64,000 bases of DNA, taken from the NCBI RefSeq assembly GCF_000190595.1, contig NC_015167.1:3146501-3210500 (forward strand), written 5' to 3'. Positions 176-20,044 of the stretch are shown here, in pieces; the stretch's first letter is position 1, and each line of letters starts with the position of its first letter. A model generated the notes under the pieces. That model was given only the letters and a program-made list of their open reading frames with translations, did not search any database and was not told the origin of the DNA. Both the position numbers and the translations under genes were made by a program. The stretch is from Cellulophaga lytica DSM 7489. Lineage in GTDB: Bacteria; Bacteroidota; Bacteroidia; Flavobacteriales; Flavobacteriaceae.

Positions 176-206
176 ATTGTCAATAAATAAAAAATATCTA
201 ATATTG
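176..206 (+). promoter_or_regulatory. Candidate promoter of the ilv leader
   Basis: ATTG at 176-179 is followed after 19 nt by TAATATTG at 199-206, one mismatch from the Bacteroidota -7 consensus TAnnTTTG, with the usual spacing to the -33 TTTG element. It would start transcription near 211-213, only a few bases before the leader-peptide ATG at 216. A start further upstream cannot be excluded. Confidence 0.4.
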
Positions 207-215
207 CTATCAGCA

Positions 216-272
216 ATGAAAAACAACATAATTATTATCGTATTAGTCATTATTATCTCTCTCTGGGGATGA
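216..272 (+). CDS. ilv operon leader peptide (attenuator ORF)
   Basis: This 18-codon ORF reads MKNNIIIIVLVIIISLWG and stops at TGA 270-272. Eleven of the 18 residues are Ile (7), Val (2) or Leu (2), exactly the products of the operon that follows. It is too short and too biased to be a functional protein; the composition is that of a ribosome-stalling leader peptide as in classical ilv attenuators. The last codons and stop overlap segment 2 of the attenuator (270-277), so a ribosome reaching the stop would mask it. No clear Shine-Dalgarno sequence is seen, as is usual in this phylum. Confidence 0.85.
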   Translation: MKNNIIIIVLVIIISLWG

Positions 273-336
273 TACGGTCTTATATTGATTTTAAGAAAAG
301 CCTGTGTCATATAAAATTGACACAGGCTTTTTTTTG
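238..336 (+). promoter_or_regulatory. Transcription attenuator of the ilv operon (segments 1-4)
   Basis: Four mutually exclusive pairing segments are visible. Segment 1 is TCGTATTA at 238-245, inside the Ile-Val-Leu codons. Segment 2 is TGATACGG at 270-277, including the leader stop. Segment 3 is CTGTGTCA at 302-309 and segment 4 is at 318-331. Pairs 1:2 and 2:3 are each 8 bp with G-T wobbles. Pair 3:4 is a perfect 14-bp stem (296-309 with 318-331, loop 310-317) followed by a T tract, that is, an intrinsic terminator. Stalling at Ile/Val/Leu codons would free segment 2 to pair with 3 and prevent termination; fast translation would cover segment 2 and let 3:4 form. This mechanism is inferred from the pairing pattern. 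Confidence 0.8.
296..336 (+). terminator. Attenuator terminator before ilvD
   Basis: The arms AAAAGCCTGTGTCA (296-309) and TGACACAGGCTTTT (318-331) are perfectly complementary around an 8-nt loop, and a run of T follows to 335. It lies between the leader ORF and ilvD, so it can only act as a conditional terminator if the operon is to be expressed from the upstream promoter. Confidence 0.85.
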
Positions 337-566
337 TTTTCAACTTTATTACAACCATTATCTAATTAAACTATTAAAGGAAATAAAATAGCTGAATGTG
401 ATACAAAATATGGTTTTATATTGTTGTAAATCAGTTAATTAAATTAATATATAGGAAGTTGGATTTATACTAAAAAACAATGTTAAAAAAATGAAGAAAG
501 TGAAAGAATTATATTTGAATAGTAAATTATATTCAATAAACAATAAGAATTACAAGATATAGCCAA
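337..566 (+). promoter_or_regulatory. 230-nt spacer between attenuator and ilvD with one candidate internal promoter
   Basis: No convincing ORF is present; a 23-codon ATG reading frame from 491 has no branched-chain bias and no family resemblance. TATATTTG at 510-517 matches the TAnnTTTG -7 element exactly, but no clear TTG lies 19-21 nt upstream. If active, it would start transcripts near 523 and let ilvD escape the attenuator. Otherwise the spacer is AT-rich with no visible structure. Confidence 0.3.
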
Positions 567-2243: not shown

Positions 2244-2324
2244 TAAAAAATAAAAAATTGAAAAAGTACTATTGTCTAAGCTCTAAAACAGTACAATAAC
2301 ACTTTTTACTTTAACTCTTTGAAA

Positions 2325-4058
2325 ATGGAAACAGTAAAAGAACAAAAGATAACATCAAAAAATAATAAAACCATAAAAATTAGTGGAGCAGAAGCTATTA
2401 TACATTGTTTATTAGCAGAGGGTGTAGATTTAATTTATGGTTATCCGGGCGGAGCAATTATGCCTGTTTATGACGAATTATACAAGTTTCAAGATAAACT
2501 AACACATATTCTTACTCGTCATGAGCAAGGAGCAACACACGCTGCACAAGGTTACGCAAGAGTTTCTGGTAAAGTAGGTGTTGCTATGGCAACTTCTGGT
2601 CCGGGAGCAACAAACTTAGTTACAGGGCTGGCAGACGCACAGATAGATTCTACTCCTATGGTTTGTATTACAGGACAAGTTCCTAGGCAACTGTTAGGTA
2701 CAGACGCTTTTCAAGAAACAGATATTATTGGTATATCTACTCCTGTTACTAAATGGAATTATCAAGTTACTAGGGCAGAAGAAATTCCAGAAATACTGGC
2801 AAAAGCATTTTACATTGCTAAATCTGGTAGGCCTGGTCCAGTACTTGTAGATATTACAAAAAATGCCCAATTTGATGAGTTAGATTTTAGCTATGAAGCC
2901 TGTACAGGTGTGCGTAGTTATAATCCGTACCCTAAGGTAGATGTTAACCAAGTTAAGGCAGCAGCTGCATTAATTAACTCAGCAAAAAAACCATTTATAG
3001 TATTTGGGCAGGGAGTAATTTTGGGAGAGGCAGAAGCTCAATTAAAAACCGTTATAGAAAAAGCAGGGATCCCAGCAGCGTGGACAATTTTAGGTGTAGC
3101 AGCTTTAGATAGTGAGCACCCTTTAAACGTTGGTATGGTTGGTATGCACGGTAATTATGCGCCAAATTTATTAACTAATGAGTGCGATGTTTTAATTGCT
3201 ATTGGTATGCGTTTTGATGATCGTGTTACTGGTAATTTAGATAGCTATGCTAAACAGGCTAAAATTATACACTTTGATATTGATCCTGCAGAAATAAATA
3301 AAAATGTTCCTACAGATGTTGCTGTATTGGGTAATGCTAAAGATAGTTTAGAAGCATTAATTCCGCTTTTAAATGACAATAAACATACAGACTGGCACAA
3401 CGTTTTTAAAGAAAAATACAAAGTAGAATTTACTACAGTTATAGAAAAAGATATTCATCCTACTAAAGAAAAATTAACAATGGGTGAGGTTATAGAGCAA
3501 ATTAATATTGCTTCTAACAACAGTGCAGTTATTGTTAGTGATGTTGGTCAGCACCAAATGATAGCTTGTAGATATGCAAAGTTTAACCAAACAAAAAGTA
3601 ACATTACATCTGGTGGTTTAGGTACTATGGGCTTTGCCTTACCAGCTGCTATAGGGGCAAAAATGGGAGCTATGGATAGGGAAGTGGTTGCTATTATTGG
3701 TGATGGTGGCTATCAAATGACAATACAGGAGTTGGGCGTAATTTTTCAGCACAATGTACCTGTAAAAATTATTGTTTTAAATAACGATCATTTAGGAATG
3801 GTACGCCAATGGCAAGAGTTATTTTTTGATAAAAGGTATGCATCTACCGTAATGGTGAATCCAGATTTTGTAAAAATAGCAGAGGGCTATCACATTAAAT
3901 CTAAACGAGTTAGTGAGCGTAGCGAATTAAAATCTACTATAGAAGAAATGTTGGCATCAAAAGATCCGTATTTTTTAGAAGTTAAGGTAGAAAAAGAGGA
4001 TAATGTGTTTCCTATGATTCCTTCAGGAGCTTCAGTATCAGACGTTAGGTTAAAATAA
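2325..4058 (+). CDS. ilvB: Acetolactate synthase large (catalytic) subunit
   Basis: The enzyme condenses two pyruvates to acetolactate, or pyruvate with 2-oxobutyrate to acetohydroxybutyrate, using ThDP and FAD. The sequence has the N-terminal pyrimidine-binding domain with YGYPGGAIMPVYDEL and the activating Glu in RHEQGATHAAQGYAR. A central Rossmann-like domain follows, then the ThDP-Mg domain with GDGGYQMTIQELGVI and the family motif DHLGMVRQWQELFF. The frame is open from a TTG at 2319, but the ATG at 2325 is the more likely start and gives 577 aa. ilvN follows after about 58 nt, completing the holoenzyme. Confidence 0.97.
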   Translation: METVKEQKITSKNNKTIKISGAEAIIHCLLAEGVDLIYGYPGGAIMPVYDELYKFQDKLTHILTRHEQGATHAAQGYARVSGKVGVAMATSGPGATNLVTGLADAQIDSTPMVCITGQVPRQLLGTDAFQETDIIGISTPVTKWNYQVTRAEEIPEILAKAFYIAKSGRPGPVLVDITKNAQFDELDFSYEACTGVRSYNPYPKVDVNQVKAAAALINSAKKPFIVFGQGVILGEAEAQLKTVIEKAGIPAAWTILGVAALDSEHPLNVGMVGMHGNYAPNLLTNECDVLIAIGMRFDDRVTGNLDSYAKQAKIIHFDIDPAEINKNVPTDVAVLGNAKDSLEALIPLLNDNKHTDWHNVFKEKYKVEFTTVIEKDIHPTKEKLTMGEVIEQINIASNNSAVIVSDVGQHQMIACRYAKFNQTKSNITSGGLGTMGFALPAAIGAKMGAMDREVVAIIGDGGYQMTIQELGVIFQHNVPVKIIVLNNDHLGMVRQWQELFFDKRYASTVMVNPDFVKIAEGYHIKSKRVSERSELKSTIEEMLASKDPYFLEVKVEKEDNVFPMIPSGASVSDVRLK

Positions 4059-4116: not shown

Positions 4117-4644
4117 ATGGAAAATAATTGGTATACCATATCGGTTTATTCTGAAAACAACGTTGGGTTGTTAAACAGAATATCGGGCATATTTTTAAAA
4201 AGACATATAAATATAGAGGCTTTAAATGTCTCAAAATCTGAAATTAATAGCGTTTCTAAATTTACAATTGTTGTAAATACAACAGAACAATGGGTTAAAA
4301 ATATTGTTGGTCAAATAGAAAAACAAGTAGAGGTTATTAAGGCTTTTTATCATAATGATGAAGAAATTATTTATCAAGAGTCTGCCTTGTTTAAAATTAA
4401 ATCAGATTTATTGTTTGATGAGCGTAATATTCAAAACATCATCAAAGAAAATAACTCGCAAATAGTTACTGTTGCACGCGATTTTTTTGTGCTTTCTAAA
4501 TCAGGAAAAAGAGAAGAAATAAATAAAATGCATGAGCAGTTAGAGCCATATGGTATAATGCAATTTGTACGCTCTGGTAGAATTGCAGTGAGTAAAGCAG
4601 AAATGCGTATTAGTAGTTTATTAGAAGAATTTCAACATAATTAA
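4117..4644 (+). CDS. ilvN: Acetolactate synthase small (regulatory) subunit
   Basis: This 175-aa protein begins with an ACT domain (about residues 5-75; YTISVYSENNVGLLNRISGI and the typical NIEALNVSKSE stretch). It continues with the ALS_ss_C-type second half (ALFKIKSD, DFFVLSKSGKREEI, GIMQFVRSGRIAV). The subunit activates IlvB and normally confers valine feedback inhibition. The length fits the long bacterial IlvN/IlvH class. It sits between the large-subunit gene and ilvC in the same direction. Confidence 0.95.
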   Translation: MENNWYTISVYSENNVGLLNRISGIFLKRHINIEALNVSKSEINSVSKFTIVVNTTEQWVKNIVGQIEKQVEVIKAFYHNDEEIIYQESALFKIKSDLLFDERNIQNIIKENNSQIVTVARDFFVLSKSGKREEINKMHEQLEPYGIMQFVRSGRIAVSKAEMRISSLLEEFQHN

Positions 4645-4690: not shown

Positions 4691-6166
4691 ATGTCAAATT
4701 ATTTTAACACCTTATCATTAAGAGACAAGTTAACCCAGCTGGGTAAATGTAGATTTATGGATACTGCAGAATTCTCTGATGGGGTAACAGCATTAAAAGG
4801 CAAAAAAATAGTAATTATTGGCTGTGGAGCACAAGGTTTAAACCAAGGATTAAATATGAGAGATTCTGGTTTAGATATTTCTTATGCTTTGCGTGATGCT
4901 GCTATAAAAGAAAAAAGAGCATCGTACAACAATGCAACAGAAAATGGTTTTACTGTTGGTAATTATGAGGAGTTAATACCTACGGCAGACTTAGTAATTA
5001 ATCTTACACCAGATAAACAACATACTAACGTAGTTAATACTGTAATGCCTTTAATGAAAAATGGTGCTACATTATCCTATTCTCACGGTTTTAATATTGT
5101 TGAAGAAGGTACACAAGTACGTAAAGATTTAACTGTTATAATGGTGGCACCAAAGTCTCCAGGATCAGAGGTTAGAGAGGAATATAAAAGAGGTTTTGGT
5201 GTGCCAACACTTATTGCTGTACATCCAGAAAATGATCCAGAGGGCAAAGGTTTGGCTCAGGCTAAAGCATATGCAGCTGCTACAGGCGGACATAAAGCTG
5301 GGGTTTTAGAATCTTCTTTTGTAGCAGAAGTAAAGTCAGATTTAATGGGAGAACAAACCATACTTTGTGGGTTGTTACAAACTGGTTCTATACTTTGTTT
5401 TGATAAAATGGTTGAAGAAGGTATAGATGCAGGTTATGCTTCTAAACTTATACAGTATGGTTGGGAAACTGTTACAGAAGGTCTTAAATATGGTGGTATT
5501 ACTAATATGATGGATCGTTTGTCTAACCCTGCCAAAATAAAAGCTTTTGAGTTAGCAGAAGAATTAAAAGATATTATGCGTCCATTATTCCAAAAACATA
5601 TGGATGATATTATGGAAGGTGAGTTTTCTAAAACTATGATGGAAGACTGGGCTAACGGAGATAAAAACTTACTAGATTGGCGAGCTGCTACAGGAGAAAC
5701 TAATTTTGAAAAAACTCCGGCTAGTGATGTAGAAATCTCTGAACAAGAATTTTATGATAATGGAGTGTTAATGATTGCTATGGTTAGAGCTGGTGTAGAG
5801 CTTGCTTTTGAAGCTATGACAGATTCTGGTATTATTGAAGAATCTGCGTACTATGAGTCGTTACATGAAACACCGCTTATTGCCAATACCATTGCCCGTA
5901 AAAAGTTATTTGAAATGAACAGAGTAATTTCTGATACAGCAGAATACGGTTGTTATTTATTTGATCATGCTTGTAAGCCTTTATTAAAAGATTTTATGGC
6001 TAAAGTGAATACTTCTGTTATTGGCAAACCATATGCTGCAGATGCAGGTAATGGTGTAGATAATGCTAAATTAATTGCCGTTAACAAGGCATTAAGAGAG
6101 CATCCGGTAGAAATTGTTGGTGCAAGATTAAGAGCATCTATGACTGCAATGAAACCTATAGTGTAA
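4691..6166 (+). CDS. ilvC: Ketol-acid reductoisomerase (class II, long form)
   Basis: The enzyme isomerises and reduces acetolactate or acetohydroxybutyrate to the dihydroxyacid with NAD(P)H and Mg2+. At 491 aa it is the long class II type, with a Rossmann domain ([20 protein letters not shown] near residue 40) followed by a duplicated knotted helical domain. Visible motifs include [37 protein letters not shown] and, in the helical part, [13 protein letters not shown] strong hairpin begins about 20 nt after the stop codon. Confidence 0.96.
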
Positions 6167-6188
6167 ACCCAACCAAACTATTCTATAG

Positions 6189-6225
6189 CCTGTCTGGTTT
6201 TTTAGAAACTAGGCAGGTTTTTATT
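6189..6225 (+). terminator. Intrinsic terminator between ilvC and ilvA
   Basis: CCTGTCTGGTTT (6189-6200) pairs with AAACTAGGCAGG (6206-6217) over 12 bp including two G-T wobbles, followed by TTTTTATTTTTT. It ends about 12 nt before the ilvA start codon, so ilvA either needs read-through or initiates inside the hairpin region. It may set a lower ilvA level than the upstream genes. Confidence 0.7.
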
Positions 6226-6236
6226 TTTTATTAAAA

Positions 6237-7487
6237 ATGAACTATTTTCCTAACATAGAAAACATTCGCAAAGCGGCTGGTACTATAAGTGCAGTTGCAG
6301 ATACCACACCATTATTAGACAGTATACGTTATTCAAAGTTATACAATGCTAATATTCTTTTAAAAAGAGAAGATTTGCACCGTGTAAGATCCTATAAAAT
6401 AAGAGGAGCTTTTAATAAAATAAGCTCATTATCTGCACAAGAAAGACAAAAAGGTGTTGTTTGTGCAAGTGCAGGAAATCACGCGCAAGGTGTAGCTTTT
6501 GCGTGTAACCATTTGGGAATTAAAGGCACAATTTATATGCCTTCAGTTACGCCAAAACAGAAAGTAGAGCAAACAGAAATGTTTGGTGGAGATTGGGTTA
6601 CTATTGTTTTAGAAGGCGATACTTTTGACGATTCTTCTAAAGCAGCTCTTCAATTTTGTGAGGAGCACCAAAAGGTATTTGTACACCCTTTTAACGATCC
6701 AAAAACTATTGAGGGGCAGGCTACAGTTGGTTTAGAAGCCATTCATCAATCTAAAAAAACAATAGACTATATTTTTGTGGCTATTGGCGGTGGTGGTTTA
6801 GCTGCTGGTTTATGTGGTGTTTTTAAAGCGTTATCTCCTACTACTAAAATTATAGGAGTAGAGCCAGCTGGTGCTCCATCTATGAAAACCAGTATAGAAA
6901 ACGGAGTAAATACAGAGCTTGTACAAATTGATAAATTTGTTGATGGTGCTGCAGTACAACGCGTGGGCGATTTAACTTTTGAGATTTGTAAAGATTATTT
7001 AGATGCTGTTATTACGGTACCAGAAGGTAAAGTATGTCAAACTATTTTAGACTTGTATAATAGAGATGCTATTGTTGTAGAACCTGCAGGAGCTTTAACT
7101 ATTGCAGCCTTAGACCAATATGCAAAACAAATAGAAGGTAAAAATGTGGTTTGTGTTGTAAGCGGTAGTAATAATGATATTACTAGAACTGCAGAAATTA
7201 AAGAACGTGCTTTGTTATTTGCCAATTTAAAGCATTACTTTATTGTACGTTTTCCGCAACGTCCTGGAGCTTTAAAAGAGTTTGTTGCAGAAATTTTAGG
7301 ACCAACAGATGATATTACTCATTTTGAGTATTCTAAAAAATCTAGTAAAGAAAATGCTCCTGCTGTAGTTGGTATAGAGTTGAAAAAACCTGAGGATTTA
7401 GAGCCATTAATTGCTAGAATGAAAGAAAATAATTTCTTTGGCGACTACTTAAATAATAAACCAGACCTGTTTCAATATTTAGTATAA
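6237..7487 (+). CDS. ilvA: Threonine ammonia-lyase (biosynthetic threonine dehydratase)
   Basis: IlvA converts threonine to 2-oxobutyrate and ammonia, the committed step to isoleucine, using PLP. The PLP-binding Lys54 lies in RSYKIRGAF; CASAGNHAQGVAFAC and the phosphate-binding loop IGGGGLAAGL follow. The 416-aa length and a single C-terminal ACT-like segment (about 335-416, beginning LKHYFIVRFPQRPGALKEF) fit the short IlvA type, shorter than the two-ACT E. coli enzyme. The ATG lies just after the hairpin at 6189-6225. A second route to 2-oxobutyrate may exist through the synthase at 16402-17916. Confidence 0.95.
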   Translation: MNYFPNIENIRKAAGTISAVADTTPLLDSIRYSKLYNANILLKREDLHRVRSYKIRGAFNKISSLSAQERQKGVVCASAGNHAQGVAFACNHLGIKGTIYMPSVTPKQKVEQTEMFGGDWVTIVLEGDTFDDSSKAALQFCEEHQKVFVHPFNDPKTIEGQATVGLEAIHQSKKTIDYIFVAIGGGGLAAGLCGVFKALSPTTKIIGVEPAGAPSMKTSIENGVNTELVQIDKFVDGAAVQRVGDLTFEICKDYLDAVITVPEGKVCQTILDLYNRDAIVVEPAGALTIAALDQYAKQIEGKNVVCVVSGSNNDITRTAEIKERALLFANLKHYFIVRFPQRPGALKEFVAEILGPTDDITHFEYSKKSSKENAPAVVGIELKKPEDLEPLIARMKENNFFGDYLNNKPDLFQYLV

Positions 7488-15308: not shown

Positions 15309-16364
15309 TTATATGTTTTCTGCTAACCAATCTCCAACTTCACTGGTTTTGTATGCTTTACCACCTTCAGATAAATCCTCGGTAACTATACCTTCTGCCA
15401 AAGATTTGTTTACAACGTCTCTTATAGCTTGTGCTTCTTCAACCAATTTAAAATCTTCAAATAACATTGCTGCAGATAATACTGTAGCCAATGGGTTTGC
15501 AATATCTTTACCAGCAGCTTGCGGATATGAGCCGTGAATTGGTTCGTATAATTTTGCTTTTTCACCTACAGATGCAGATGGCATTAATCCCATTGATCCT
15601 GATATAACAGAAGCTTCATCAGTTAAAATATCACCAAAAAGATTTTCAGTAATCATAACATCATAAGAGTTTGGCCATTGTACCAAACGCATTGCTACAG
15701 CATCTACAAACTCATAAGAAACTTCTACCTCTGGATACTCTTTTTCCATTGCTTGTACAGTTTCTCTCCATAATCTAGAAGATTCTAAAACATTAGCTTT
15801 ATCTACACAACAAAGTTTTTTAGAACGTGTCATAGCCAATTCAAATCCTTTTTTAGCCAAACGTTGCACTTCTGCTCTTGTATAGGTACAAGTGTCAAAA
15901 GCAGTATCTCCATTGTCTTTACGTCCGCGTTCACCAAAATAAATTCCGCCAGTAAGTTCTCTTAAAATAATAAGATCTGTACCTTCTATACGCTCTCTTT
16001 TTAAGGGAGATTTATCTATTAAAGAAGGAAATGTAAATGTTGGTCTAACATTAGCAAACAAACCTAATTTTTGTCTCATTTTAAGTAAACCTTGTTCTGG
16101 TCTTACTTTAGCAGATGGGTCATTATCAAACCTAGGGTGACCAATTGCTCCAAATAAAACAGCATCTGCAGCTTCACAAATAGCGTGTGTTTCATCTGGG
16201 TAAGGTTCTCCAACAGCATCAATAGCTGCAGCACCAGTTAAAGCTGGTGTCCAGTTAATTTCATGATTAAACTTTTTTGCAATAGCATTAGATACTTTCA
16301 CTGCTTGGTCTATTACTTCCGGACCAATACCGTCTCCTGCTAATAGTGCTATATTTAATTTCAT
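15309..16364 (-). CDS. leuB: 3-isopropylmalate dehydrogenase
   Basis: LeuB oxidatively decarboxylates 3-isopropylmalate to 2-oxoisocaproate with NAD+; in several bacteria it also acts on 3-methylmalate in the citramalate route. The 351-aa sequence shows LLAGDGIGPEV at the N-terminus, the substrate-binding ELTGGIYFGERG, and the metal-binding NLFGDILTDEASVISGSMG, followed by EPIHGSYPQAAGKDIANP. It is the last gene of the minus-strand leuCD-synthase-leuB cluster, 37 nt after the synthase gene, and ends at a bidirectional terminator. Confidence 0.96.
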   Translation of the reverse strand: MKLNIALLAGDGIGPEVIDQAVKVSNAIAKKFNHEINWTPALTGAAAIDAVGEPYPDETHAICEAADAVLFGAIGHPRFDNDPSAKVRPEQGLLKMRQKLGLFANVRPTFTFPSLIDKSPLKRERIEGTDLIILRELTGGIYFGERGRKDNGDTAFDTCTYTRAEVQRLAKKGFELAMTRSKKLCCVDKANVLESSRLWRETVQAMEKEYPEVEVSYEFVDAVAMRLVQWPNSYDVMITENLFGDILTDEASVISGSMGLMPSASVGEKAKLYEPIHGSYPQAAGKDIANPLATVLSAAMLFEDFKLVEEAQAIRDVVNKSLAEGIVTEDLSEGGKAYKTSEVGDWLAENI

Positions 16365-16401
16365 AGGTATGTTTTTTCTCTTTAATTATTTTTTAATTCT
16401 G

Positions 16402-17916
16402 CTAAATTATATTTAGCATTTTTTCTGTTGCTTTTATTGCCGATACAGTTTGGTCAGAGTCTAGTCCACGAGTTTTAAATTCGTTTTCTCCGTTTTGCCA
16501 TGTTATAATGGTTTCACAAAGTGCGTCAGAATTACTGCCAGGCGGTATACGCACAGCATAATCTATTAATTTAGGAAGCTTAATATTTTTAGCTTTAAAA
16601 ATTTTGGTAATAGCATTCATAAAAGCATCATATTGTCCGTCACCCTGCGCGTTTTCTTCAAACAATTCATTTTCAATTTCTACGGCAACCGTTGTGCTTG
16701 GTTTTAAGCCTTTAGAATGGGTAAGCACATAGCTTTTTACAATAACTTTATCTTGGTAACTATCACTATCAAGAACATCAGAAATTATATAAGGTAAATC
16801 CTCTTTAGTAACTTTTTCCTTTTTATCACCCAACTCAATAATTCGTTGTGTAACTTTTCCTAAATCATCATCATTTAGTGTTAGTCCTAGCTCTTGTAAG
16901 TTTTTTAAAATATTAGCTTTGCCAGATGTTTTTCCTAAAGCATATTGTCTTTTTCTACCAAAACGTTCAGGAAGTAAATCATTAAAATAAAGATTCTTTT
17001 TGCTGTCTCCGTCTGCATGAATACCTGCCGTTTGTGTAAAAACATTTTCACCAACAATAGGTTTGTTTGCAGGTATTCCAAAACCAGTAAATGTAGATAC
17101 CAGTCTGCTTACCTTGTATAATGATGTTTCTTTTAAATCAATTTCTACATCGGGTAAAAAATCATTAATTACCGCAACAACACTGGCCATTGGTGCATTA
17201 CCAGCACGTTCTCCCATACCATTAATGGTTAGGTGTAAACCGTGACAACCGGCTTTAATAGCCTCCATTACGTTAGCAACACTTAAATCATAATCATTAT
17301 GACCGTGAAAATCAAAATGAAGGTTTGGGTATTTTTTTACCAGTTCTGAGATGTACGTAAATGTTTCAGTGTGTGTTAGTACACCTAATGTGTCTGGTAA
17401 TAAAACTCTTTTTATAGGTTGATGAGATAAAAAATCTAAAAACTGATACACATATGCTTTAGAATTTCGCATACCGTTGCTCCAATCTTCTAAATATACA
17501 TTTGTTTCTATTTGATGATTTTGAGCAAGAAGAATAGTTTCTTTAATTTCTTTAAAGTGCTGTTCTGGTGTTTTTTTTAACTGATGTGTTAAATGATTTA
17601 AAGATCCTTTGGTTAATAAGTTTTGCACTTTAGCACCTGCATCTTGCATCCATTTAATAGATACACCTTTATCTACAAAAGTTAAAACCTCTACATTGTT
17701 AATGTAGTTGTGTGCAGTTGCCCAACTTGTAATTTGTTGTACAGCTTGCAGTTCACCATCAGACACACGTGCAGATGCAACTTCAATCCTATCAACCTTT
17801 AACTCTTCTAATAATAATTTAGCAAGAGTTAATTTTTCAGAAACAGAAAAGGACACTCCAGAGGTTTGTTCACCATCACGGAGTGTGGTATCCATTATTT
17901 CAATCTTTCTTTTCAT
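16402..17916 (-). CDS. cimA: Citramalate synthase-like member of the 2-isopropylmalate synthase family
   Basis: The protein condenses acetyl-CoA with a 2-oxoacid. It has a HMGL-type TIM barrel (residues 1-275; DTTLRDGEQTSGVSFS, metal ligands in HFDFHGHNDYDLSVAN, GERAGNAP). A C-terminal LeuA-type regulatory domain follows (about 365-504). As remembered, the Leptospira interrogans citramalate synthase selects pyruvate through Leu81, Leu104 and Tyr144; the equivalent residues here are Leu78 (EVLTF), Leu101 (NLLTKG) and Tyr141 (NVYLEDWSNG). Long stretches such as RIEVASARVSDGEL and ENVFTQTAGIHADGD also resemble that enzyme. It may therefore make citramalate rather than 2-isopropylmalate. Automatic pipelines would probably call it leuA; the substrate is not proven. 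Confidence 0.7.
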   Translation of the reverse strand: MKRKIEIMDTTLRDGEQTSGVSFSVSEKLTLAKLLLEELKVDRIEVASARVSDGELQAVQQITSWATAHNYINNVEVLTFVDKGVSIKWMQDAGAKVQNLLTKGSLNHLTHQLKKTPEQHFKEIKETILLAQNHQIETNVYLEDWSNGMRNSKAYVYQFLDFLSHQPIKRVLLPDTLGVLTHTETFTYISELVKKYPNLHFDFHGHNDYDLSVANVMEAIKAGCHGLHLTINGMGERAGNAPMASVVAVINDFLPDVEIDLKETSLYKVSRLVSTFTGFGIPANKPIVGENVFTQTAGIHADGDSKKNLYFNDLLPERFGRKRQYALGKTSGKANILKNLQELGLTLNDDDLGKVTQRIIELGDKKEKVTKEDLPYIISDVLDSDSYQDKVIVKSYVLTHSKGLKPSTTVAVEIENELFEENAQGDGQYDAFMNAITKIFKAKNIKLPKLIDYAVRIPPGSNSDALCETIITWQNGENEFKTRGLDSDQTVSAIKATEKMLNII

Positions 17917-17951
17917 TATAGTATTGGCGGGTTATTCTGGTACGTATTAAA

Positions 17952-18548
17952 TTACAAAGGAGTATTTTCAGCAAAAGCCGTAATTTCTTCTTTCATATTT
18001 AACAGGTAGTCAATATCATCAAAACCATTAAGCATATTTTCTTTTTTATACGCATTAATGTCAAAAGATTCTTTGTCGCCAATATTAACAATAGTAATTG
18101 TTTGTTCTTGTAAATTTACCTCTACTTGTGAGTCAGCGTCTTTTTCTGTCTCTGCAAATATTTTTTCTAAAAATTCAGGAGAAACCTGTACAGGTAATAC
18201 ACCAACGTTTAAACAGTTGTTTCTAAAAATATCTGCAAAAAAACTAGATACTACACATCTAAAACCATAGTCATATACGGCCCAAGCTGCGTGCTCACGA
18301 GAAGAACCAGAACCAAAGTTTTTACCACCAACTAGTATTTTACCAGAGTATTTATCTTGGTTTAAAACAAAATCTTTTTTAGGAGAATTGTCTGCATTGT
18401 AGCGCCAATCTCTAAATAAATTATCTCCAAAACCTTTACGTTCTGTAGCTTTTAAAAAACGTGCTGGTATAATTTGGTCTGTATCTACGTTTTCTATTGG
18501 TAGCGGAACTACACTACTTTTTAAGATGTTAAATTTATCGTATGCCAT
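17952..18548 (-). CDS. leuD: 3-isopropylmalate dehydratase small subunit
   Basis: LeuD is the swivel-domain subunit of isopropylmalate isomerase and forms the active enzyme with LeuC. The 198-aa length is typical. Motifs include IPARFLKATERKGFGDNLF, the conserved GKNFGSGSSREHAAWAVYDYG and NNCLNVGVLPV. It lies between leuC (104 nt upstream on the minus strand) and the synthase gene (35 nt downstream), in the same orientation. Confidence 0.96.
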   Translation of the reverse strand: MAYDKFNILKSSVVPLPIENVDTDQIIPARFLKATERKGFGDNLFRDWRYNADNSPKKDFVLNQDKYSGKILVGGKNFGSGSSREHAAWAVYDYGFRCVVSSFFADIFRNNCLNVGVLPVQVSPEFLEKIFAETEKDADSQVEVNLQEQTITIVNIGDKESFDINAYKKENMLNGFDDIDYLLNMKEEITAFAENTPL

Positions 18549-18652
18549 TTTAATTTACTTTTTGCCTCTAGCTTTTGGCTAGTGGTATATGTTGATTATT
18601 AATTTTTATGTAGCATTTAACCAAGGTTAATTGCTAGCAACTAACAGCTATT

Positions 18653-20044
18653 TTATAGCAATTCTCTAGGGTCTGTAACTTTACCGGTTACTGCAGCTGC
18701 GGCAGCTACAAGCGGAGAAGCTAATAGTGTTCTAGATCCAGGACCTTGCCTACCTTCAAAATTTCTGTTAGATGTACTTACTGCATATTTACCAGCAGGT
18801 ACTTTATCATCATTCATAGCTAAACACGCAGAACAACCAGGTTCTCTTAACTCAAAACCAGCAGCTGTTAAAATATCTAATAAACCTTCTTCTTTAATAG
18901 CTGCTTCTACTTTATGCGAGCCCGGCACCAACCACGCAGTTACATTTGGCGCTTTTTGCTTGCCTTTTACAATTTCTGTAAAAGCTCTAAAATCTTCAAT
19001 TCTTCCGTTAGTACAGCTTCCTAAAAACACAAAGTCAATTGGCTTACCAATCATAGAATCTCCTTCATTAAAAGCCATATATTGTAAAGACTTTTTATAG
19101 GTAGATACACCACCCTCTAAACTCTCTGCAGTTGGTATATCTTTGCCAATACCCATTCCCATACCAGGATTAGTACCATAGGTAATCATAGGTTCTATAT
19201 CTGCTCCTTTAAAAGTAAGTTCTTTATCAAATTTAGCGTCTTCTTCTGTGTACAAAGTATCCCAGTATGCTTTTGCTTTATCCCAAGCAGCACCAGTTGG
19301 TGTAAACTCTCTTCCTTTAACGTATTCTAATGTTTTTTCGTCAGGAGCAATCATACCTCCACGGGCACCCATTTCTATACTAAGGTTACAAACCGTCATA
19401 CGGCCTTCCATAGTCATATTTTTAAATACATCACCTGCGTATTCTACAAAGTAACCTGTTGCACCAGAAGTGGTAAGCTGTGATATAATGTATAAAGCAA
19501 CATCTTTAGGTGTAACCCCTTTGTTTAAGTTGCCTACAACATTAATACGCATACTTTTTGGTTTAGGTTGCATAATACATTGTGTAGCTAAAACCATTTC
19601 TACCTCAGATGTACCAATACCAAATGCAATTGCGCCAAAGGCACCGTGAGTAGAGGTGTGTGAGTCTCCACAAACAATAGTGGCTCCTGGTTGTGTAATA
19701 CCATACTCAGGACCAACAACGTGTACAATACCGTTTTTTTCATGACCTAATCCCCAGTAACTAATACCGTGAGCTTTAGAGTTTTCTTCTAATGCTTTTA
19801 ATTGGTTAGCAGATAAAGGATCTTTAACCGGTAAGTGCTGATTAATAGTTGGTGTGTTATGGTCTGCAGTAGCAAATGTTTTTTCTGGGTGTTTTACACC
19901 AATATTTCTACTTTTTAAACCTAAAAATGCAACCGGACTAGTAACTTCATGTACCATATGGCGATCTATAAAAAGAACATCTGGTCCGTTTTCTATTTTT
20001 TTTACTACGTGGGAGTCCCACACCTTGTCAAACAGTGTTTTCAT
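18653..20044 (-). CDS. leuC: 3-isopropylmalate dehydratase large subunit
   Basis: LeuC carries the [4Fe-4S] cluster of the isomerase that interconverts 2- and 3-isopropylmalate; the same enzyme works on citramalate in the citramalate pathway. The cluster ligands are Cys344 (LGSCTNGR) and Cys404/Cys407 (PGCSACLAM). Other family signatures are [29 protein letters not shown] and [15 protein letters not shown]. Length is 463 aa, normal. It is the first gene of the leu cluster, with a candidate promoter at 20133-20140. Confidence 0.97.

Follow-up and report, generated by a model that had tools for sequence, protein, structure and literature searches.

A probable leader-peptide attenuator before the ilvDBNCA operon of Cellulophaga lytica, and its single and tandem counterparts in relatives

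The DNA directly before the ilv operon of Cellulophaga lytica DSM 7489 raises the question of whether transcription of these genes is attenuated by translation of a short leader peptide, and of how translation of such a leader would begin in a phylum where mRNAs carry no Shine-Dalgarno sequences. A preliminary description, made from the letters of the sequence, had claimed a complete attenuator with the logic of enterobacterial ilv at this place. Having compared the locus with its relatives, we consider that a ribosome-mediated (leader-peptide) transcription attenuator before ilvDBNCA is very probably the best explanation of what is found there.

The window, i.e., the whole stretch of 64,000 nucleotides that was analysed, belongs to a genome of 3.77 Mb in a single contig, and starts between ilvD and an upstream ORF that is divergent from the leader (L082 4583-5026, minus strand). 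On the plus strand, 3' of the putative attenuator, the operon has the order ilvD (567-2243, dihydroxy-acid dehydratase, TIGR00110), ilvB (2319-4058, acetolactate synthase large subunit, TIGR00118), ilvN (4117-4644, acetolactate synthase small subunit, TIGR00119), ilvC (4691-6166, ketol-acid reductoisomerase, NF003557) and ilvA (6237-7487, threonine ammonia-lyase, NF006390). Between ilvC and ilvA lies a terminator-like hairpin followed by T-rich sequence (6187-6219), which could set relative expression inside the operon. Farther along, on the minus strand at 15309-20044, are ORFs resembling leuC, leuD, an HMGL-family synthase and leuB, of which only the synthase has profile support (PF00682), the leu names having been given by reading the translations.

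Leader and terminator in the window and in relatives

The leader ORF (MKNNIIIIVLVIIISLWG) occupies 216-272 of the plus strand, with its ATG at 216-218 and its TGA at 270-272, and re-reading of the sequence bore out the 18 codons and the 11 Ile, Val or Leu codons (7 Ile, 2 Val, and 2 Leu) first reported for it. The terminator hairpin with its T tract also stood: it spans 293-334 on the same strand, with arms 293-309 and 318-334 (core 300-309 and 318-327), a loop at 310-317, T residues at 328-335 and a folding energy of −24.7 kcal/mol for the whole hairpin, and its core occurs only once in the genome. Comparison with the corresponding locus of Cellulophaga fucicola (L002), which shares 96% identity with the window genome in IlvD, reveals a clear footprint, in which 114 of 120 bases are identical from leader to terminator (216-335), against 28 of 36 in the promoter stretch (171-206), 31 of 56 just 3' of the terminator (336-391) and 69 of 144 at 27-170.

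Scanned for terminator patterns, the first 9.6 kb of the window by themselves gave a count near chance (6, against 4.5 in shuffles), and the case therefore rests on relatives. We assembled 201 ilvD upstream regions: that of the window itself, those of the 80 best among 590 ilvD relatives (the named loci), and a manual selection of 120 more, of which 88 belong to the family of the window and 32 come from elsewhere in the phylum. A strict filter asked for a terminator at or below −9 kcal/mol, preceded within 60 nt by the end of an ORF of 10–32 codons in which I, V, and L make up 38% or more and include a run of three. In this set, 103 of 157 terminators were preceded by an I/V/L-rich leader, compared with 7.2 expected from dinucleotide shuffles and with 4 of 63 terminators on the reverse strand. 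Strict units were present in 85 of the 201 regions, or 81 once the exact duplicates L089, L091, L094, and L120 were removed; this removal came after the count of 103/157, and same-genome pairs (e.g., L004/L083 and L056/L110) were kept both in that count and in the relaxed ones. With a relaxed filter, at least one unit was found in 95/197 regions, vs. 10/197 on the reverse strand, and no unit was detected in the other 102. Four of these (L102, L124, L125, and L152) have a terminator with arms of the window's type at about −1090, the edge of the stretch examined, which hints at a first gene other than ilvD in these loci. Of the 32 regions from outside the family, 8 scored, two of them (L171 and L177) doubtfully, with units about 1 kb upstream.

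It might be argued that the hairpin simply ends the transcript of an upstream gene or of a small RNA and that the I/V/L-rich ORF is an accident of AT-rich sequence, since the region is indeed AT-rich and the scan of the 9.6 kb alone was near chance. However, the upstream ORF is divergent, on the minus strand, so that the hairpin is not its terminator, and we rejected this origin. Leaders and terminators further co-occur far above both shuffles and the reverse strand, the conservation of the leader and terminator falls off sharply just downstream, and a helix inside the ORF covaries (see below), all of which make this explanation very improbable.

The amino acids to which the leaders would respond are suggested by their composition. 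The preliminary description held that the operon is controlled by charged Ile, Val, and Leu tRNA. Among 95 leaders of relatives, Ile accounts for 31% and Val for 14% of the residues after Met, and Leu, for which the claim is not supported as it stood, accounts for 5.5%; the filter weighs I, V, and L alike, and the Leu share is given without a computed background. In 93 pairs of similar leaders, which are not independent of one another, there were 374 single-base codon differences, of which 132 were synonymous (73.8 expected at random, an excess that would fit a translated leader), 72 were exchanges among I, L, and V, and 170 were other changes. The last I/V/L codon lies 0–4 codons before the stop in 92/95 leaders (none in 15, one in 13), and a ribosome stalled within the run, rather than at the very last of these codons, would leave the segment beginning at the stop codon free to pair. 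Four of the eight loci of genus g128, perhaps Flavobacterium (L163, L166, L167, and L170), share closely similar leaders, MQISIIITSVxVVNV-, and there the terminator stands just some 60 nt ahead of ilvD.

Conserved structure in the 5' region ahead of a biosynthetic operon might instead mean a riboswitch or T-box, an RNA that binds a ligand or tRNA and uses the terminator, with the ORF being incidental. However, Ile and Val codons are retained in leaders that otherwise vary, and an Rfam scan of the window, T-box and other riboswitches included, returned no match at gathering score, so that a known Rfam element was rejected and this alternative appears hardly credible. The best of the weak matches was Thr_leader (RF00506), at 28.4 bits against a gathering score of 55, which is itself a leader-peptide attenuator.

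Mutually exclusive pairings and the proposed mechanism

A leader-peptide attenuator of the trp/ilv type would require alternative helices (1:2, 2:3, and 3:4). Segment 2 (270-277) starts with the leader stop codon and pairs with segment 3 (302-309) over 8 pairs, as had been described, both on the plus strand; segment 3 is also part of 3:4, and the antiterminator 2:3 and the terminator 3:4 are consequently mutually exclusive. In an alignment of 30 units of the window's type, 96.0% of the 3:4 cells are paired (23–41% when slid), 7 cells being changed on both sides, and 96.7% of the 2:3 cells are paired (22–43% when slid). Within this type (B), 2:3 shows both-sided changes in none of 240 cells, and column shuffles also give 96.7%; its support therefore comes from the slid control and from agreement across types. 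The terminator arms of relatives are of the types CTGTATC (as in the window), CCTTCC, CCCTTC, and CCCTTT. Compared with shuffled linkers, the 2:3 duplex that a unit forms with its own linker ranks among the best 5% in 63/95 units (A 26/45, B 19/30, C1 8/10, and C2 10/10), and in a swap test linkers favour the arms of their own sequence group in 64/95 units, L171, L177, L184, and L186 having been dropped beforehand for lack of a clear arm type.

The one segment that had to be moved is segment 1. Its earlier placement at 238-245 can be drawn in the window (238-245:270-277, 8 pairs, −4.1 kcal/mol). However, this helix pairs in 47.5% of cells of the 30 units, within the slid range of 22.5–60.4%, and we rejected it as unconserved. 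Applied to the alignment of the same 30 units, RNAalifold instead placed the 5' arm of 1:2 at 252-259 and its 3' arm at 266-273 (plus strand), inside the leader and overlapping segment 2 by TGAT, such that this protector hairpin and 2:3 exclude each other. The helix is paired in 94.6% of cells (34.6–54.2% when slid), its covariation of 0.505 compares with 0.319 in column shuffles and was reached by 0/500 of them, and 25 cells are changed on both sides (8.8 in shuffles); both-sided changes occur at 4 pairs, a number that 195/500 shuffles reach and that is therefore no excess. Related sequences may surpass column shuffles even without structure, hence the slid control is counted too. Towards the end of the leader, type A units have a covarying hairpin of their own, which is 88.2% paired and has a covariation of 0.448 (vs. 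0.250 in shuffles, 0/500 reaching it) in an alignment, A2, of 38/45 units, from which L031, L156, L170, L195, L197, L198, and L199 were left out by hand. The comparison of related flavobacteria proposed in the preliminary description thus came out in its favour: the leader recurs, and 1:2 at its new position shows compensatory changes.

Folding of partial window transcripts gives 1:2 when the RNA is free, 2:3 (269-277:302-310) when the RNA is free from 266 on but lacks segment 4, and 3:4 when the RNA before 284 is omitted; a trp-type attenuator should have just these three states. With −24.7 kcal/mol, against −5.7 for 2:3 as a bare helix, 3:4 is by far the stabler, and the fold is always 3:4 once segment 4 is present, which means that antitermination must be kinetic.

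From these elements we infer a course that runs from transcription through translation and stalling to termination or read-through. RNA polymerase would start at about 211, and the near-leaderless message would be translated from 216. With ample Ile- and Val-tRNA, the ribosome would reach the stop codon and cover segment 2 (270-277), and 3:4 would terminate transcription at about 335. If Ile- or Val-tRNA were short, the ribosome would stall in the Ile/Val run and block 1:2 (252-259:266-273), leaving segment 2 free, so that 2:3 (270-277:302-309) would form before segment 4 is made and polymerase would read into ilvDBNCA. Without translation, 1:2 would form and 3:4 would terminate. The leader ORF, the three helices with their mutual exclusion and the geometry of the predicted promoter are shown by sequence and comparison; leader, 1:2, 2:3, and 3:4 recur in relatives, and all sequence tests speak for an ilv leader-peptide attenuator, as first claimed.

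Predicted promoters before and after the attenuator

In Flavobacterium psychrophilum, the −7 box TAnnTTTG spans −12 to −5 (PMC9723704). The window has a −33-like TTG at 177-179 and, 19 nt later, the −7-like box TAATATTG at 199-206 (one mismatch to this consensus), both on the plus strand; transcription from this predicted promoter, P1, should therefore begin near 211, 5 nt before the leader ATG. Such boxes are frequent among relatives: a box with at least five of six matches ends 3–11 nt before the ATG in 58/80 first leaders, whereas 200 rounds of shuffling give 16.2 (at most 26), and windows of equal width further upstream give 14/80 and 22/80. The distance window was chosen after a first look at the data; the test covers 80 of 81 first leaders, L171 having too little upstream sequence, and the 80 include L031, L070, L077, and L080, in which, on reading, the strict filter had mistaken a wrong or second ORF for the first leader. 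The commonest distances between box and ATG are 9, 8, and 5 nt, corresponding to predicted 5' ends 5, 4, and 1 nt from the ATG. The message thus seems to start almost at the leader start codon, as far as the predicted P1 tells. This geometry is not universal, for the called ATG of L163, L166, L167, and L170 lies 19 nt past the end of the box.

Leaderless mRNAs make up only 5.5% of those with mapped starts in F. psychrophilum (PMC9723704), and about 3.7% of 5' UTRs are under 10 nt in Bacteroides thetaiotaomicron (PMC7366714). The near-leaderless trait is known elsewhere, because C. glutamicum ilvBNC and Sinorhizobium meliloti trpL are near-leaderless or leaderless.

A second conserved element follows the terminator at 392-521 on the plus strand (108/130 identical to L002), with TTGAAT-type repeats, TGTTAAAA and, at 510-517, a −7-like box, TATATTTG, that matches TAnnTTTG perfectly. 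We predict that this is a second promoter, P2, with the binding array of a regulator and a start at 522. With fixed offsets imposed, the element is found in 37 loci, 15 with and 22 without a strict attenuator call; the gap-free alignment of these loci is partly by construction, the count has no chance control, and the duplicates in L004/L083 and L056/L110 were dropped from it. The blocks keep a constant spacing, with the final −7-like box 53–58 nt before ilvD in most loci that have them.

P2 may give ilv expression independent of the attenuator. Since a promoter-like element lies past the terminator, the claim that charged tRNA governs the operon as a whole is not supported as it stood. It is conceivable, if somewhat less likely than the converse, that the attenuator is real but minor, with most ilv transcription coming from P2 and the leader from P1 adding only under starvation. 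The conservation of the element relative to L002 and its occurrence in 22 loci without a strict call would fit such a division of labour. However, P2 is predicted from sequence without a chance control, inspection by eye recognised no −33-like TTG where one would be expected ahead of its −7 box, and at least four of the 22 loci (L005, L010, L056, and L085) carry a CTGTATC-type terminator, the strict filter missing some attenuators.

Stacked attenuators, known systems, and other amino acids

Whereas the window has a single unit, of the CTGTATC type, two leaders and two terminators in series were found by the strict filter in 18 of 81 distinct loci; the relaxed filter gives 22/197 regions, vs. 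1/197 on the reverse strand, L170 being apparently spurious. In L038, L044, L054, L101, L106, L118, L122, L142, L149, L150, and L151, the first unit is of the CCTTCC type (CCCTCC in L106 and CCTTCT in L118) and the second of the CTGTATC type, that of the window. The strict set further includes L036, L042, L049, L051, L061, L063, and L069, and in the seven Aquimarina tandem loci both units are of CCC types. The second leader starts 9–45 nt past the first terminator stem in 16/18 loci and 86 and 101 nt past it in two; at 101 nt (L049) it has a −7-like box of its own. Overall, 2 of 18 second leaders have such a box 3–11 nt before the ATG, vs. 2.7 in shuffles.

Enterobacterial ilvGMEDA is preceded by a leader-peptide attenuator, and the window resembles it in the I/V/L-rich leader peptide, the alternative hairpins and the terminator before ilv genes, but differs in gene order, in its predicted near-leaderless start and in its mostly Ile and Val codons. 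C. glutamicum ilvBNC combines a leader peptide rich in branched-chain amino acids with translation-dependent attenuation and begins transcription one nucleotide from the leader start codon, but it belongs to Actinobacteria and has another leader peptide, operon and hairpins (PMC11857589). The 5' end of the attenuator RNA of S. meliloti trpL coincides with the leader ATG, although this is a Trp attenuator in Alphaproteobacteria (PMC7298713). Salmonella mgtCBR, like the flavobacterial tandem relatives, has two short ORFs and attenuators in series in one leader, but these answer two signals (ATP and proline), whereas both leaders of the relatives are I/V/L-rich and the window has one unit (PMC3641672). 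The preliminary description was fair in calling such control far less examined in this phylum, but indications of it are already in print. Among the structured 5' regions of F. psychrophilum, of the same family, strong clues to leader-peptide attenuation have been reported ahead of amino-acid operons (PMC9723704), and short ORFs reminiscent of attenuation leader peptides have been noted in B. thetaiotaomicron (PMC7366714). An ilv operon, a tandem unit and a near-leaderless leader are not named in the passages of the former that were considered (PMC9723704). Leader-peptide attenuation is known, and its principle is in print within the family; new here are the predicted near-leaderless start and the tandem relatives. 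Our literature search of open papers found no description of a flavobacterial ilv attenuator or of same-signal tandem attenuators. A comparative study of attenuation in bacteria by Lopatovskaya et al. from 2010 may cover Bacteroidetes.

Of ten other upstream regions examined in the same genome, three (L203, L204, and L208) hold a leader followed by a terminator, these leaders being counted without a chance control: a His leader (MRNKNTHHHHFTPCYQAS) before hisG, a Trp leader (MKITTNIWWWNNLRQTS) before a trpE-like PF00425 gene, where a longer in-frame ORF is possible, and a Phe leader (MNTRYFWNGFYFYFFFKRGTGLL) before pheA. A −7-like box ends 7 nt before the leader ATG in his and 5 nt before it in trp; for phe there is none that close, and the start of pheA was not located within the stretch. 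No leader with a terminator was found before leuC in the window, the HMGL gene at 3064650, two of three PF00425 genes or the amino-acid kinases at 2209613 and 2717358, and the upstream region at 1954556 has just a doubtful hairpin of −10.5.

Taken together, these observations allow a joint reading that we regard as evenly balanced between right and wrong. Flavobacteria would attenuate on near-leaderless leader mRNAs, with 5' ends about 0–6 nt from the AUG, as an answer to the absent Shine-Dalgarno sequence, and many genera would stack two same-signal attenuators before ilv; with the second leader mostly lacking a recognisable promoter, the two terminators would multiply and sharpen the response to Ile and Val, and the lineage of the window would have kept just the second unit type, with a promoter directly before it. 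The ilv, his, trp, and phe leaders provide sequence-level evidence for trp/ilv-type attenuation of several amino acids in one Bacteroidota genome, and the geometry of the predicted starts suggests how leader translation begins in this phylum. The relatives, with one unit, two, or none detected, form a natural series for testing the effect of stacked same-signal attenuators.
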